Source of the DNA: Thioalkalivibrio sulfidiphilus HL-EbGr7
GTDB taxonomy: Bacteria; Pseudomonadota; Gammaproteobacteria; Ectothiorhodospirales; Ectothiorhodospiraceae
Assembly (NCBI RefSeq): GCF_000021985.1
Contig: NC_011901.1
Span: 2,232,001-2,296,000, forward strand
Direction: 5' to 3'
Length of the DNA stretch: 64,000 nucleotides
In this document: positions 1,390 through 59,246 of the stretch, in pieces
How positions within the stretch are numbered: the first letter of the stretch is position 1
Layout of the letters: every line of letters begins with the position of its first letter
The notes under the pieces: generated by a model
Told to the model about the DNA's origin: nothing
The model's input: only the letters and a program-made list of their open reading frames with translations
The model's database searches: none
Translations under genes and position numbers: made by a program

Positions 1390-2790
1390 GCCTCCAATCA
1401 AACGACTCAATTCCTGCGTTTTCTCCCTCATCAATCCCTCATCCCCCCGGGTTTCCACATTCAAACGAATCACGGGTTCGGTGTTTGAACCACGCAGGTT
1501 GAAGCGCCAGGTGCTGAATTCCATGCTCAGGCCGTCGGTACGGTCGATGGAGGGCTGCTTTGGGGTGAAATGCGCCTCGATGCGGGCGATGGTGTCGGGC
1601 ACGCTACCCACCAGGAAGTTGATCTCACCGCTGCAGGGATAGGCGGCCATGCGCGCGTTGACGAGATCAGCCAGGGGGGTGATCCCGTCAGAAACCACCC
1701 TCACCCCTCCCCCTGGGGGGGAGAGGTGATTGAGATGGCCCTTGCACATGAGTTCGGCGATCAGCAGCCAGGGGATCATGCCGGAGTCGCAGCAGGCGAA
1801 GTCCCTGAAGTAGTGGTGGGCGCTCATCTCGCCACCATAGACAGCATCCTCCAGGCGCATGCGCTCCTTGATGAAGGCGTGCCCCGTCTTACTCATGATG
1901 GGCATGCCACCTGCGGCGGTAACCTGCTCGATGGTGTTCCAGGTGAGCCGGGGGTCATGGATGATCATGCCGCCGGGATACTTGGCGAGCATCACCTCCG
2001 CCAGCAGGCCCACCAGGTAGTAGCCCTCGATGAACCGGCCCGTGTGGTCGAACAGGAAACAGCGGTCGTAGTCGCCGTCCCAGGCGATGCCCATGTCGGC
2101 GCCATGGGCCCGAACAGCATCCGCCGTGACCCCACGATTCTCGGGAAGCAAAGGGTTGGGAATGCCATTGGGGAAATGGCCATCCGGCTCGTGATGGATG
2201 CGGGTGATCAGGAAGGGAAGATGTTCCGCGATAGCGTCAAAGGCCGGACCAGCTGCGCCGTTGCCGGCATTGACCACCAGGTGCAGAGGCTTGAGCTCGG
2301 TCAGATCGACCAGCGAAAGCACCCGCTTGACATAGCTGCTCATGACATCCAGGGATGTGTCCTGCCCATGACCAGTCGAAGAGGAGAAATCGGCCTCCCG
2401 CGCCAGGTGCTCAATGTCTCTCAGCCCGCTGTCGCCGCTGACCGGGATGGCCTCCTCCCGCACCAGCTTCATGCCGTTGTAGTCGATGGGGTTGTGGCTG
2501 GCGGTGACCATGATGCCGCCACCCATGCCGGGCAGGGAGGCGGCATGGTAGACGATCTCGGTGCCGCACAGCCCAAGGCTGCGGGTATCCACACCTTCGT
2601 CATTGAGACCCCGGGTCACCGCTTCCGCCAGTTCCGCACTGGTCAAGCGCATGTCCTGACCCACCGCCACGGGCCCCGTTGGCTGGATGACCCGGGCGTA
2701 GGCACGACCGATCCGATAGGCCAGTTCGGCATTGAGTTCGTCCGGTATACGGCCGCGGATGTCGTAGGCTTTGAAACTGGGTAGGGGCAT
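1387..2790 (-). CDS. manB: Phosphomannomutase/phosphoglucomutase
   Basis: A 467-aa alpha-D-phosphohexomutase of the AlgC/ManB type that interconverts hexose-6- and hexose-1-phosphates to feed sugar-nucleotide synthesis. The phosphoserine loop TASHNP is at residues 96-101 (S98) and the metal-binding loop DGDYDR at 238-243. An EMSAHHYF substrate loop and the C-terminal [14 protein letters not shown] phosphate site are present. Residues about 352-371 form an extra loop rich in Pro and Gly; the DNA coding for it is a near-palindrome at 1697-1729 that looks like an inserted repeat. The gene lies inside the polysaccharide cluster. Whether it prefers mannose or glucose cannot be read from sequence. 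Confidence 0.93.
1697..1729. repeat. GC-rich palindromic repeat inside manB coding sequence
   Basis: A C-rich run followed by a G-rich run (CACCCCTCCCCC / GGGGGGGAGAGGTG) forms an imperfect inverted repeat and codes for the [10 protein letters not shown] part of a loop that other enzymes of the family lack, as I remember them. It resembles known repeat insertions in coding regions of other bacteria. Confidence 0.5.
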
Positions 2791-2843
2791 AGCTAGTTCT
2801 TAGAAAGCATGAATCGGGACATGGCGATATTAAGGTTACTTAC

Positions 2844-2857
2844 CACTGACCACTGAC
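2844..2857. repeat. Two-copy CACTGAC heptamer at the wzz-like gene end
   Basis: Two tandem copies of CACTGAC, the reverse complement of the GTCAGTG unit found at 1295-1360, lie three bases from the stop codon of the Wzz-like gene. The 70-base gap between this gene and manB holds nothing else recognisable. Confidence 0.75.
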
Positions 2858-2860
2858 AGC

Positions 2861-4096
2861 CTATGCTGTTTCCTCGCGGGCGTTTCTCAGAAATTCGGCG
2901 AAGAAGGCGGCGAAGACGCCCAGCATCAGGCCCAAGAACAGGGATAACGCCAAGATGATGGACTTGCCAGGCCCTTCGGGCTCAAGACTGCGCGCGGGCT
3001 GGGTCACGACTCGCGTATCCCGGGCGGCATTGAGTCTGGCCTCCACCGCGCGCACGGTCTGACGCTGCGCCTCCGTCGACCTTTCCCAGTCAATGCGGAA
3101 GCGTTCCAGTTCAGACTCCCTGGCCTCAATCTCCGTTTTCATGTTCGACTGAGCCCGCAGAATGTCGTCCAGTCGCTTCTGAAGTTCATCGAATTCATTG
3201 GGCAGGCCGATGTGCAGCCTTTCGTCCAGGGTCGCAAGGCGATTGCGGTTCTGCTGGATGTCGCTGTCGATCATGAGCAAGGTCATGGCATTCGCGGGGT
3301 CGCCAACATTGGCGACCGCCGCACGCCTCGTTTCAGATGCCACCTCGATAGAATGCCGAATCTCCTTGATCTGCTGTTCCAGCAGTCTTTGCATATCATC
3401 CAAGCGCTTGATGCGTGACTCCACCAGTTCCTGTTGCTGGAGGAGTTCACTCAGCTCTAGCTTGGTTCTTTCAATGGCCCGTACACGTTCCAATTCCTGA
3501 ATACGGAACATGCGCTCATCCTCATACTTCGCAAGTTCCAACCGGGCCTGCTCAAGACGGGAATCGAGTTGCTGGCGCTGAATATCCAACAGATAGCGAT
3601 GATCCTCGATCAGTTGATTACTGGCGTAGTTGAGCACACGGAGGATTGACTCTCCCTCATCCAGCGTTCCCTTGACCTCGATCACAACCAGATTGCTACC
3701 CCTTGGGTTGCGAGCCGTGACACGCAGTCTGGATTCTTCGTGGCCTTCATCCATGTAGCGACGAAGCGCCTCAGGAATATAGCCATCCTGAAGCTTGGAC
3801 AGGGCATTCTCGACCGTATCGAGGGACGCCAACTCTCTGGAGCCTGCCTCGGTTGGATAATGACCGATTTCGATAGTGCTGCCGAAAACGTACGTATCGG
3901 GCTTGACTATCAAAAACATAATACCGAGGACCAAGCTCCCCACGACTGTAAACCCAATAATGGACCTTCTTCTGACCAGCGTGCGCCACAGGTCGATCAA
4001 GCTGATCTCGTCATCCGGATAGTAGGCTGCCTCCCGGCGGGACCCGCCACGAGTTTGCTCCGCTTCATCACTCTGCGATCCTTTCATATCAGCCAT
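2861..4096 (-). CDS. Wzz/GumC-family polysaccharide chain-length protein
   Basis: A 411-aa inner-membrane protein. One transmembrane helix lies near residues 45-64, a long charged coiled-coil periplasmic region (roughly 150-360) follows, and a second helix rich in Leu, Phe and Gly lies at about 378-400 before a short basic tail. This is the Wzz/polysaccharide co-polymerase plan, which sets O-antigen or capsule chain length. No C-terminal tyrosine kinase domain is present. The N-terminal cytoplasmic YYPDDEISLIDLWRTL is typical of the family. It follows the epimerase gene by 42 bases in the same operon-like run. Confidence 0.85.
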   Translation of the reverse strand: MADMKGSQSDEAEQTRGGSRREAAYYPDDEISLIDLWRTLVRRRSIIGFTVVGSLVLGIMFLIVKPDTYVFGSTIEIGHYPTEAGSRELASLDTVENALSKLQDGYIPEALRRYMDEGHEESRLRVTARNPRGSNLVVIEVKGTLDEGESILRVLNYASNQLIEDHRYLLDIQRQQLDSRLEQARLELAKYEDERMFRIQELERVRAIERTKLELSELLQQQELVESRIKRLDDMQRLLEQQIKEIRHSIEVASETRRAAVANVGDPANAMTLLMIDSDIQQNRNRLATLDERLHIGLPNEFDELQKRLDDILRAQSNMKTEIEARESELERFRIDWERSTEAQRQTVRAVEARLNAARDTRVVTQPARSLEPEGPGKSIILALSLFLGLMLGVFAAFFAEFLRNAREETA

Positions 4097-9106: not shown

Positions 9107-9136
9107 AGAGACAAGATACAAGAGGCAAGAGACAAG
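9107..9136. repeat. CAAGAGA-family heptamer repeat, single arm (C1)
   Basis: Four degenerate 7-nt units (CAAGATA, CAAGAGG, CAAGAGA, CAAGAGA) lie just upstream of the relA start. The opposite arm is not the inverse of this unit but a different heptamer (CATCCTT, 9171-9191), on the other side of a terminator-like hairpin. Confidence 0.8.
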
Positions 9137-9138
9137 AG

Positions 9139-52326: not shown

Positions 52327-52396
52327 ACAAGTGGGAAGTGAGAATTGGGAAGTGCGAGCGTTTGTTCCAACTTCCCAATTCTCACTTCCCACTTCA
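52327..52396. repeat. GAAGTGG-family palindromic repeat (D5)
   Basis: GTGGGAAGTGAGAATTGGGA on the left, inverted TCCCAATTCTCACTTCCCAC on the right around a short centre. The pssA stop TGA is its last unit. Confidence 0.9.
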
Positions 52397-53179
52397 ATCC
52401 TCCTTCTGCTCCTCGCCATCCGCCTTGTCCTCACTGCCCCGGGCACGCCGGCGACGCCAGCGGATCACGGTCAGGGTCGGGCCCGACAGGGCGTAGAGCA
52501 GGAACCCGCCCCAGAGCACCTTGGGGGGATCGATGGCGGTCAGCATCAGGGCCACCACGATGACCAGCACCACGAAGAACGGCACCCGGTGGCGGAAATC
52601 CATGTCCTTGAAGCTGAAGTAAGTGACGTTGCTCACCATCAGCGCGCCGGCGATCACGGTCACCACCAGGGCCATGATCCCGAGATCCGTGCCCACGAAT
52701 TCCAGGTCGTGCCAGACCCACACCATGCCCATCACCAGGGCGGCGGCGGAGGGGCTGGGCAGGCCCTGGAAGAAACGCTTGTCAGCCACGCCCACCTTGG
52801 TGTTGAAGCGGGCCAGGCGCAGGGCGGCGGCGGCGGCATAGAAGAAGGCCGCAACCCAGCCCACCTGTCCCAGTTCCACCAGGGCCCAGAGATAGACCAC
52901 CAGGGCCGGCGCGAGGCCGAAGGAGACCATGTCCGAGAGGCTGTCGTACTCGGCGCCGAAGGCGCTCTGGGTGTTGGTCATGCGCGCCACGCGTCCATCG
53001 ATGCCATCCAGCACCATGGCCACGAACACCGCGATGGCGGCGGCGGTGAACTGATCGTTGATGGCGGCCACGATGGCATAGAAGCCCGCAAACAGGGCCG
53101 CCGTGGTGAACAGGTTGGGCAGCAGGTAGATGCCGCGGCGGGCCTTCTGGTCGCCCGCCTGGGGTTCGGTGTCCGACAT
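52394..53179 (-). CDS. pssA: CDP-diacylglycerol-serine O-phosphatidyltransferase
   Basis: A 261-aa multi-pass enzyme making phosphatidylserine from CDP-diacylglycerol and serine. The CDP-alcohol phosphotransferase motif is DGIDGRVARMTNTQSAFGAE followed by YDSLSDMVSFGLAP. Six to seven helices are visible and the C-terminus is basic. It follows psd after two bases. This is the membrane type II enzyme, not the E. coli phospholipase-D-like type. Confidence 0.93.
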   Translation of the reverse strand: MSDTEPQAGDQKARRGIYLLPNLFTTAALFAGFYAIVAAINDQFTAAAIAVFVAMVLDGIDGRVARMTNTQSAFGAEYDSLSDMVSFGLAPALVVYLWALVELGQVGWVAAFFYAAAAALRLARFNTKVGVADKRFFQGLPSPSAAALVMGMVWVWHDLEFVGTDLGIMALVVTVIAGALMVSNVTYFSFKDMDFRHRVPFFVVLVIVVALMLTAIDPPKVLWGGFLLYALSGPTLTVIRWRRRRARGSEDKADGEEQKED

Positions 53180-53181
53180 AG

Positions 53182-53814
53182 TCAGGCCTTGTCGCTTTCC
53201 TTGTGGACCAGGATACCGATGATATCACTGCCCGCCTTCAGGCGCTGTCCCGGCGCCACCTCCACCCGGCTGTTCATGGGCAGGTAGACCTGCACCGGCA
53301 GGCCGAAACCCAGGAAACCGCAGCGCCTGCCCTGCCCCATGCGCTCACCGGACTGCACGCCGCAACGAACCAATCGCAGCCCCCGGATCTGTATGGCGAA
53401 TACCACCTCGTCGCCTTCATCGGTCTGCACCTGCAGGGCGAACTCGTCCCCGGGGAGCCCCTCCTTGACCCCTTCCTTGCCCGGCCACCAGCGCGCCTGC
53501 ACTTTGCCCTCGATCGGGCTGTGCACGTTGAATTCACCGAAACGGGACTGGCGCAGGCTCACACGCCGGGCCGGCCGGCCCAGGTAGGGATCACGATGTT
53601 CGGCCACCTCCGTGACCACACCGTCCACGGGGCTCAGCACGGCCAGGGCCCTGGGCGCGACCTTGCGGCTGAAATCACGGAAGATGAAAAATGCCACGGC
53701 CAGCAGGATCCAGCTGGGCCAGGCGATCTCGGCTCCCCAGACCGCATGGGTACCGGCGACGACGACCGCCGCAGCCGCGACGTAGGGACGACCTTCAGGT
53801 GCGAGAGGAAGCAT
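53182..53814 (-). CDS. psd: Phosphatidylserine decarboxylase homologue lacking the pyruvoyl serine
   Basis: A 210-aa short-form Psd homologue. An N-terminal hydrophobic region (10-45), FIFRDFSRK, LSPVDGVV (60-67) and FNVHSPIEGKV (95-105, with H98) match the family. The self-cleavage site, normally GS within FGSRVDVYLP, reads FGLPVQVYLP here (G171-L172), so no serine can become the pyruvoyl group. The surrounding frame is intact, with no frameshift. It may be inactive, structural, or act in another way. It lies between ilvC and pssA as active psd genes do. Confidence 0.8.
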   Translation of the reverse strand: MLPLAPEGRPYVAAAAVVVAGTHAVWGAEIAWPSWILLAVAFFIFRDFSRKVAPRALAVLSPVDGVVTEVAEHRDPYLGRPARRVSLRQSRFGEFNVHSPIEGKVQARWWPGKEGVKEGLPGDEFALQVQTDEGDEVVFAIQIRGLRLVRCGVQSGERMGQGRRCGFLGFGLPVQVYLPMNSRVEVAPGQRLKAGSDIIGILVHKESDKA

Positions 53815-53820
53815 TTAAAG

Positions 53821-53900
53821 AAGATACAAGTGAAAAGAGGCAAGAGACAAGAAAGGGCCAACCCCTTCTTGCCTCTTGCCTCTTATATCTTGCCTCTTGA

Positions 53901-53903
<3 letters not shown>
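53821..53903. repeat. CAAGAGA-family palindromic heptamer repeat (C4)
   Basis: Left units AAGATACAAGTG, AAAGAGGCAAGAGACAAGA; right units TTCTTGCCTCTTGCCTCTTA and TTGCCTCTTGA. It begins one base from the psd start region and ends in the ilvC stop codon. Confidence 0.85.
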
Positions 53904-55013
<1,110 letters not shown>

Positions 55014-59137: not shown

Positions 59138-59246
59138 CAGAGACAAGAGACAAGTGGCTAGAGACAAGAGGGGGCTTCTGCTGACTCTGCCGCAGAGCGC
59201 ACACAACGTGCACCTTATCTTGTCTCTTGTATCTTGTCTCTTGTCA
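59138..59246. repeat. CAAGAGA-family palindromic heptamer repeat (C6)
   Basis: Left AGAGACAAGAGACAAGTGGC, right TCTTGTCTCTTGTATCTTGT. The stop codon of the aldo/keto reductase (TGA in GTGACAAGA) is in the last unit. Confidence 0.88.

Follow-up and report, generated by a model that had tools for sequence, protein, structure and literature searches.

PsdL, a phosphatidylserine decarboxylase homologue of Gammaproteobacteria that has almost certainly lost its catalysis and may serve a new role beside PssA

Results and Discussion

The gene between ilvC and pssA in the stretch of Thioalkalivibrio sulfidiphilus HL-EbGr7 DNA analysed here (64,000 nucleotides, called the window; the genome is one contig of 3,464,554 bases) encodes a short homologue of phosphatidylserine decarboxylase (Psd), for which we propose the label PsdL, and this homologue is almost certainly a dead decarboxylase. 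We read PsdL as an ancient, neofunctionalised pseudo-decarboxylase family. The Psd family and the operon in which the gene lies are known; what appears to be new, judging from the sequences, is the loss of the chemistry and the gain of a new conserved signature. Our search of the open-access literature, with subscription journals mostly outside its scope, found no description of a dead bacterial Psd family.

The psdL gene and its surroundings

The psdL gene is an open reading frame on the minus strand at 53182..53814, whose 210 aa product belongs to the Psd family and is devoid of its active site; the original prediction, made from the letters of the window, had named this frame by its coordinates and the string FGLPVQVYLP, and frame, coordinates, strand, length and string are all borne out. 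The N-terminus of PsdL contains two putative hydrophobic helices. The closest named record is that of Thioalkalivibrio sulfidiphilus ALJ17, with a PsdL that is 97% identical. The predicted position between ilvC and pssA is confirmed at the locus: the ilvC ORF lies upstream (53901..54959, minus strand; this is the longest ORF, and the true start is probably inside it), and pssA, encoding CDP-diacylglycerol--serine O-phosphatidyltransferase (118.4 bits against a cut-off of 107), lies downstream at 52394..53179 on the minus strand, with a 2-base gap from the psdL stop to its start codon. By reading, the same-strand ORFs around psdL are ilvB, ilvN, ilvC, psdL, pssA and leuA; a family search stands behind the assignment of pssA alone, and the other neighbours are named by reading of their ORFs.

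The ilvC-psdL spacer (53815..53900, minus strand) carries a long RNA hairpin that comes from a repeat dispersed in the genome. Repeats of the AAGAGGCAAGA type are found in spacers of the window at 53835-53898, 54937-55006, 9120-9137 and 59218-59242, with 13 matches at one mismatch or fewer against 0.67 expected, and the copy between ilvC and psdL gives an RNA hairpin fold with a 23-bp stem (-50.6 kcal/mol, z -8.1). Across the whole genome the paired AAGAGGCAAGA form is present at 5 places and the doubled unit yields 29 matches, some of them overlapping. The spacer element is a dispersed hairpin repeat and probably has no part in psdL function.

The active site is lost as a whole

The site sequence of the window protein is F-G171-L172-P173-V-Q-V-Y-L-P, compared with FGSRVDVYLP in canonical short Psd and LGSTVILLLP in full-length Psd. 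In our alignments the Gly171-Leu172-Pro173 codons (53296..53304, minus strand) stand at the self-cleaving Gly-Ser-Arg of active Psd, with Gly171 in the Gly column and Leu172 in the following column of the pyruvoyl Ser, and the pyruvoyl serine is therefore missing, as had been predicted. The accompanying claim that the other motifs are intact fails: Phe95 (53530..53532, minus strand) occupies the catalytic His column (E. coli His144 by alignment), and residues ~112-124 (53443..53481, minus strand), at the place of the canonical G-[K/R]-F-x-N-A phosphate loop and of N-E-R, contain neither motif. N-E-R, which is common to full-length and canonical short enzymes, serves as a marker by our own reading of the alignment, and the role of the loop is carried over from the E. 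coli enzyme by alignment. Asp64 of the SPVDG motif is retained. Gly-Ser, the catalytic His, the phosphate loop and N-E-R, by which a functional Psd is recognised, are thus all absent from the window protein, and since His, loop and N-E-R are missing, the whole active site is gone and not a single residue.

The chemistry of these positions has been examined in the E. coli enzyme. According to PMC7952604, His144 mutants produce no phosphatidylethanolamine (PE) and no stable Schiff base with phosphatidylserine, Ser166 and Val167 on the loop contact the phosphate, and the G253P variant is uncleaved, as is S254A. The same paper reports that S166A alone costs no activity and that His144 mutants are still cleaved on longer standing, so that loss of the loop alone is no proof of inactivity. 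From this known chemistry PsdL, being devoid of pyruvoyl formation at the family site, should not decarboxylate phosphatidylserine. A sequencing error or frameshift was considered and is ruled out by the same GLP in loci L003 (97% identical) and L007 (72%). With GLP present in two other Thioalkalivibrio records, and with the change common to a clade, the observation goes beyond chance.

The family scores separate PsdL from functional Psd while keeping it within the family. The window protein scores 37.9 bits against Pfam PF02666 (cut-off 22) and is a family member by sequence, and all 38 PsdL members tested match PF02666 at E 0.001; PsdL thus scores as phosphatidylserine decarboxylase in Pfam and may be so named. 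Against the NCBIfam Psd models the window protein falls below every cut-off, the best being NF003680 (119 bits versus 262), and so do all three other dead proteins tried (83-187 bits), whereas the five canonical short Psd controls all pass NF003680 with 307-361 bits. In a phmmer search of the PDB sequences with the single window protein, the only match was CD2-associated protein at E 0.18, and a plasmid search gave 38 records, with identities of at most 32.1% among the 10 matches listed.

Dead and canonical copies form separate sets

Homologues of the window protein are present in 39 of the 47 genomes of the order, and 123 of the 369 sampled class genomes have a match to it. We read 156 loci, 155 of which have open frames and were kept, 119 of them from the class search (the 123 minus G168, G231 and G334, which gave partial matches, and minus G230) and the other 36 from the order search. 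The dropped locus, L131 (G230, ~2501-3097), has a psdL with an in-frame TAA at codon 9, which is apparently broken or started downstream; this genome also has a full-length Psd. The 155 intact short-Psd rows comprise 136 dead and 19 canonical ones. His, Gly-Ser, the G-x-F-x-N-A loop and N-E-R are each found in 19/19 canonical rows, compared with 2/136, 14/136, 0/136 and 0/136 of the dead rows, the loop and N-E-R being counted by fixed patterns. The serine column of the dead rows holds G (36), R (33), A (30), S (17), L (8) and others, a variety to be expected where the old constraint on a position no longer applies. Given the slow cleavage of the His144 mutants described in the E. coli study, self-cleavage may be possible in the 14 dead copies with Gly-Ser. 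The only two dead rows with a His in the catalytic column, L085 (G248) and L103 (G236), both read Pro-Ala at the Gly-Ser position.

A single branch (SH-aLRT 99) splits the two sets in a tree built from 98 dead and 33 canonical rows, and the loss is accordingly common to a clade, as the original prediction had envisaged. The tree is a quick, unrooted one with many weak inner branches, in which L184 and L177 are long and unsure; it omits class and order rows at least 72% identical to a kept row, plus 11 of the 30 phylum loci. Because the catalytic residues of the canonical rows are also those of full-length Psd, we take the dead state as derived, and on these sequences the active site would most simply have been lost once. 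In the phylum sample 200 of the 398 genomes have a match, and 30 of the 200 loci were read; all 29 loci besides that of the window itself are canonical, and one of them (G366) was already among the 19. By profile score, the out-of-class matches reach at most 147.9 bits and 97 of the 98 dead rows outside the profile at least 157.9 bits, the remaining dead row scoring 98.1; as this is below the out-of-class maximum, dead copies outside the class are possible.

A full-length Psd accompanies the dead copy

A whole-genome search revealed one further PF02666 gene in the genome of the window, at C1:1325125-1325775 (208.8 bits), with YHRVHMP and NLGSTV; its product scores 246.6 bits against TIGR00163, for which the cut-off is 111.75. 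The suggestion that another Psd does the work is thus supported by a full-length enzyme with an LGST motif that should be active by these motifs, and with this enzyme elsewhere in the genome the window protein need not be active for PE to be made. The alternative suggestion, that phosphatidylserine accumulates, is not needed for this organism and could apply to five draft genomes in which no Psd was found.

The same pattern extends across the class. Full-length Psd, defined as a PF02666 match with E <1e-48 plus G223, where the Psd is in two pieces, occurs in 0/19 class genomes with a canonical copy and in 94/100 with a dead copy, or 95/100 counting G223 (Fisher p 9e-18 for the 119 class genomes whose row could be read, a value that overstates the link since each state is one clade and not 119 independent events). 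All 30 full-length loci examined carry YHRxH[M/A/L]P and [L/M/F]GST, which, as the frames were picked by these motifs, means that both are present in each locus; the full-length genes sit at other loci than psdL.

In the five exceptions (G133, G236, G262, G285 and G360), all with a dead copy, TIGR00163 detects no Psd even at E values up to 10. PF02666 has no match in G133 and G285 and one weak match each (~1e-8) in G236, G262 and G360, presumably the dead copy itself. Each of these genomes is a draft (150-410 contigs, 93-98% completeness), and the missing Psd possibly reflects incomplete assembly; G262 and G360 are of one genus, however, so that Psd may be truly absent there. The dead copy lies upstream of pssA in each of the five (L176 in G133, L103 in G236, L142 in G262, L069 in G285 and L141 in G360). 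Phosphatidylserine may be an end product in these genomes.

Operon order and the proposed role of PsdL

Upstream ilvC and downstream pssA on the same strand flank 129 of the 136 dead loci, and in two of the seven exceptions (L047 and L082) the flank available on the missing side is short; ilvC-psd-pssA is likewise the order of 15/19 canonical loci. Long open frames had hinted at IlvC-PsdL fusions, a candidate that was rejected as no locus has both in one stop-free frame.

We propose the following course of events. With a full-length Psd present, redundancy would have freed the operon copy from catalysis, since this copy then need not decarboxylate. The sequences show that the copies of this clade have lost His, the phosphate loop, NER and mostly Gly-Ser, and that they have kept their frame, their hydrophobic N-terminal stretch, the ilvC-psdL-pssA order and purifying selection, with a new set of Glu, Asp-Glu and Arg fixed. 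PsdL would have taken up a non-catalytic membrane task, most likely that of assisting or regulating phosphatidylserine synthesis, with the full-length Psd elsewhere performing the decarboxylation. We lean slightly towards this explanation as a whole, that of a dead enzyme turned partner in phosphatidylserine synthesis, in an accessory or a regulatory capacity. Its last element, a partnership of this kind beside PssA, is put forward tentatively and has gene order as its one basis, the shared operon with its 2-base gap being what favours a PssA role. Stated more broadly, there is about an even chance that PsdL is a widespread, unrecognised family, in Gammaproteobacteria as sampled, of ex-pyruvoyl decarboxylases with a new Glu/Asp-Glu/Arg site that controls or performs a step of phosphatidylserine metabolism beside PssA.

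The following comparisons weigh against the partnership. PssA does not itself need PsdL. None of 20 pssA loci examined in genomes without a window-protein match contains PsdL, and in seven of them ilvC lies close by, 15-319 bases from pssA; an eighth has a 1,005-base ilvC-pssA gap with another ORF and a masked stretch. Type II PssA exceeds its cut-off in 329/369 class genomes, compared with a window-protein match in only 123/369, and with PssA nearly everywhere its co-occurrence with PsdL says little. Rate covariation likewise gave nothing specific, with a PsdL-PssA partial correlation of 0.56 against 0.55 for the control IlvN (66 genomes).

New conserved residues and the predicted fold

The dead copies share residues that the canonical enzymes do not fix. 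Glu102 (53509..53511, minus strand) is near-invariant among dead copies, being found in 135/136 versus 3/19 canonical rows, as are the two residues of Asp132-Glu133 (53416..53421, minus strand), with Asp132 in 136/136 versus 9/19 and Glu133 in 135/136 versus 6/19. Arg158 (53341..53343, minus strand) is invariant among dead copies (136/136 versus 7/19); Gly160 is present in 134/136 versus 2/19 rows, and the string [T/S/N]-D-E in 136/136 versus 4/19.

The four charged residues, near-invariant here but variable among canonical enzymes, raise the idea that PsdL is a new enzyme, in which Glu102, Asp132, Glu133 and Arg158 make up a different site, catalytic or metal-binding, with a phospholipid or its head group as substrate. 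The fold comparison of the predicted PsdL model can be read in the same sense, with similarity to EIIA(Glc) (Z 9.5) and to M23/LytM proteins (Z ≤5.9), a fold that hosts several chemistries, and one of the 38 PsdL members also matches Peptidase_M23 (E 2.1e-4). The model is, however, of middling confidence (mean pLDDT 68.4), Foldseek returned no match for it at E 0.001 or below, and in this fold comparison a best Z of 7-8 is usual even for a query without a clear relative. We do not take the modelled resemblance to EIIA(Glc) and M23 proteins as the function of PsdL; PSD structures were absent from the fold matches listed for the same model. As no known catalytic motif was recognised in PsdL either, a new enzyme seems unlikely to us.

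Less likely still, PsdL might by analogy be a prozyme, an inactive paralogue whose binding activates or stabilises the full-length Psd. A dead paralogue does stand beside a presumably active enzyme in 95/100 genomes with a dead copy, and a precedent exists in another pyruvoyl enzyme (PMC5201418). The distribution argues the other way: PF02666 is matched in 342/369 class genomes and the window protein in only 123, so that Psd mostly occurs without PsdL, and in five genomes PsdL persists although no Psd was found there. Moreover, psdL adjoins pssA and not psd, a poorer fit to gene order than the role beside PssA that we prefer.

Purifying selection and the remaining alternatives

Among 23 hand-picked close pairs of dead copies dN/dS ranges from 0.037 to 0.176 with a median of 0.121, some pairs sharing a genome and one (L073-L084) being saturated. 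The pssA median is 0.053 (20 of the same 23 pairs, with zero, infinite and missing values omitted), and the canonical copies give 0.038 and 0.066 (n=2, a third pair having an infinite dS). By these substitution rates PsdL is clearly under purifying selection and less constrained than PssA and canonical Psd. The selection and the new conserved residues lend indirect support to the new role that the original prediction had listed among its options.

The looser constraint has suggested to us that PsdL might be a drifting relic, kept merely by its operon position: its omega is ~2x that of pssA and above both canonical pairs, one copy (L131) has an early in-frame stop, and other genomes have ilvC-pssA loci that lack PsdL. 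We nevertheless regard a relic as improbable, as omega does not exceed 0.176 in any of the 23 dead pairs, the four charged residues are fixed in 135-136 of the 136 dead copies, and 155 of the 156 loci have open frames. Least probable of all is that PsdL still decarboxylates by way of another serine (Ser182 in MNSRV) or a non-pyruvoyl cofactor: Ser182 is Ser in 72/136 dead copies (3/19 canonical) and a minority keep Gly-Ser, as noted above, but Ser182 is preceded by Asn and not Gly, has a different letter in 64/136 dead copies, and would have to work in a protein from which the catalytic His, the phosphate loop and NER have also been lost.

Under our preferred reading of PsdL as a dead, repurposed decarboxylase, the consequences are practical as well as evolutionary. 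Since PsdL should not work as a Psd, metabolic models that count it as one would be wrong. PsdL would show how, in nature, a pyruvoyl enzyme can shed its chemistry, apparently in a single event, and still be maintained, its conserved residues clearly exchanged for others. It also hints at a possible new component next to a core step of PE synthesis in bacteria.

Comparison with known systems

The E. coli-type full-length Psd (TIGR00163; PDB 6L06 and 7CNW) is distant to PsdL; a profile of 38 PsdL members searched against the PDB aligned with the beta chain of E. coli PSD at E 0.16-0.17, which is non-significant and stood among other non-significant rows.

The prozyme of trypanosome S-adenosylmethionine decarboxylase has a fold unrelated to that of PsdL. 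It forms a heterodimer with shown activation, whereas PsdL is known here from sequence. Like PsdL, it is a dead paralogue of a pyruvoyl decarboxylase beside an active one (PMC5201418).

The nearest known system is the short-form bacterial Psd (NF003680/NF003678, PRK05305; PF02666), with which PsdL shares the family, the length, the hydrophobic N-terminus, SPxDG and the ilvC-psd-pssA order. PsdL differs from it in having lost His, the phosphate loop, NER and Gly-Ser, in scoring below all NCBIfam cut-offs, and in carrying SPxEG, TDE and GERxGQG.
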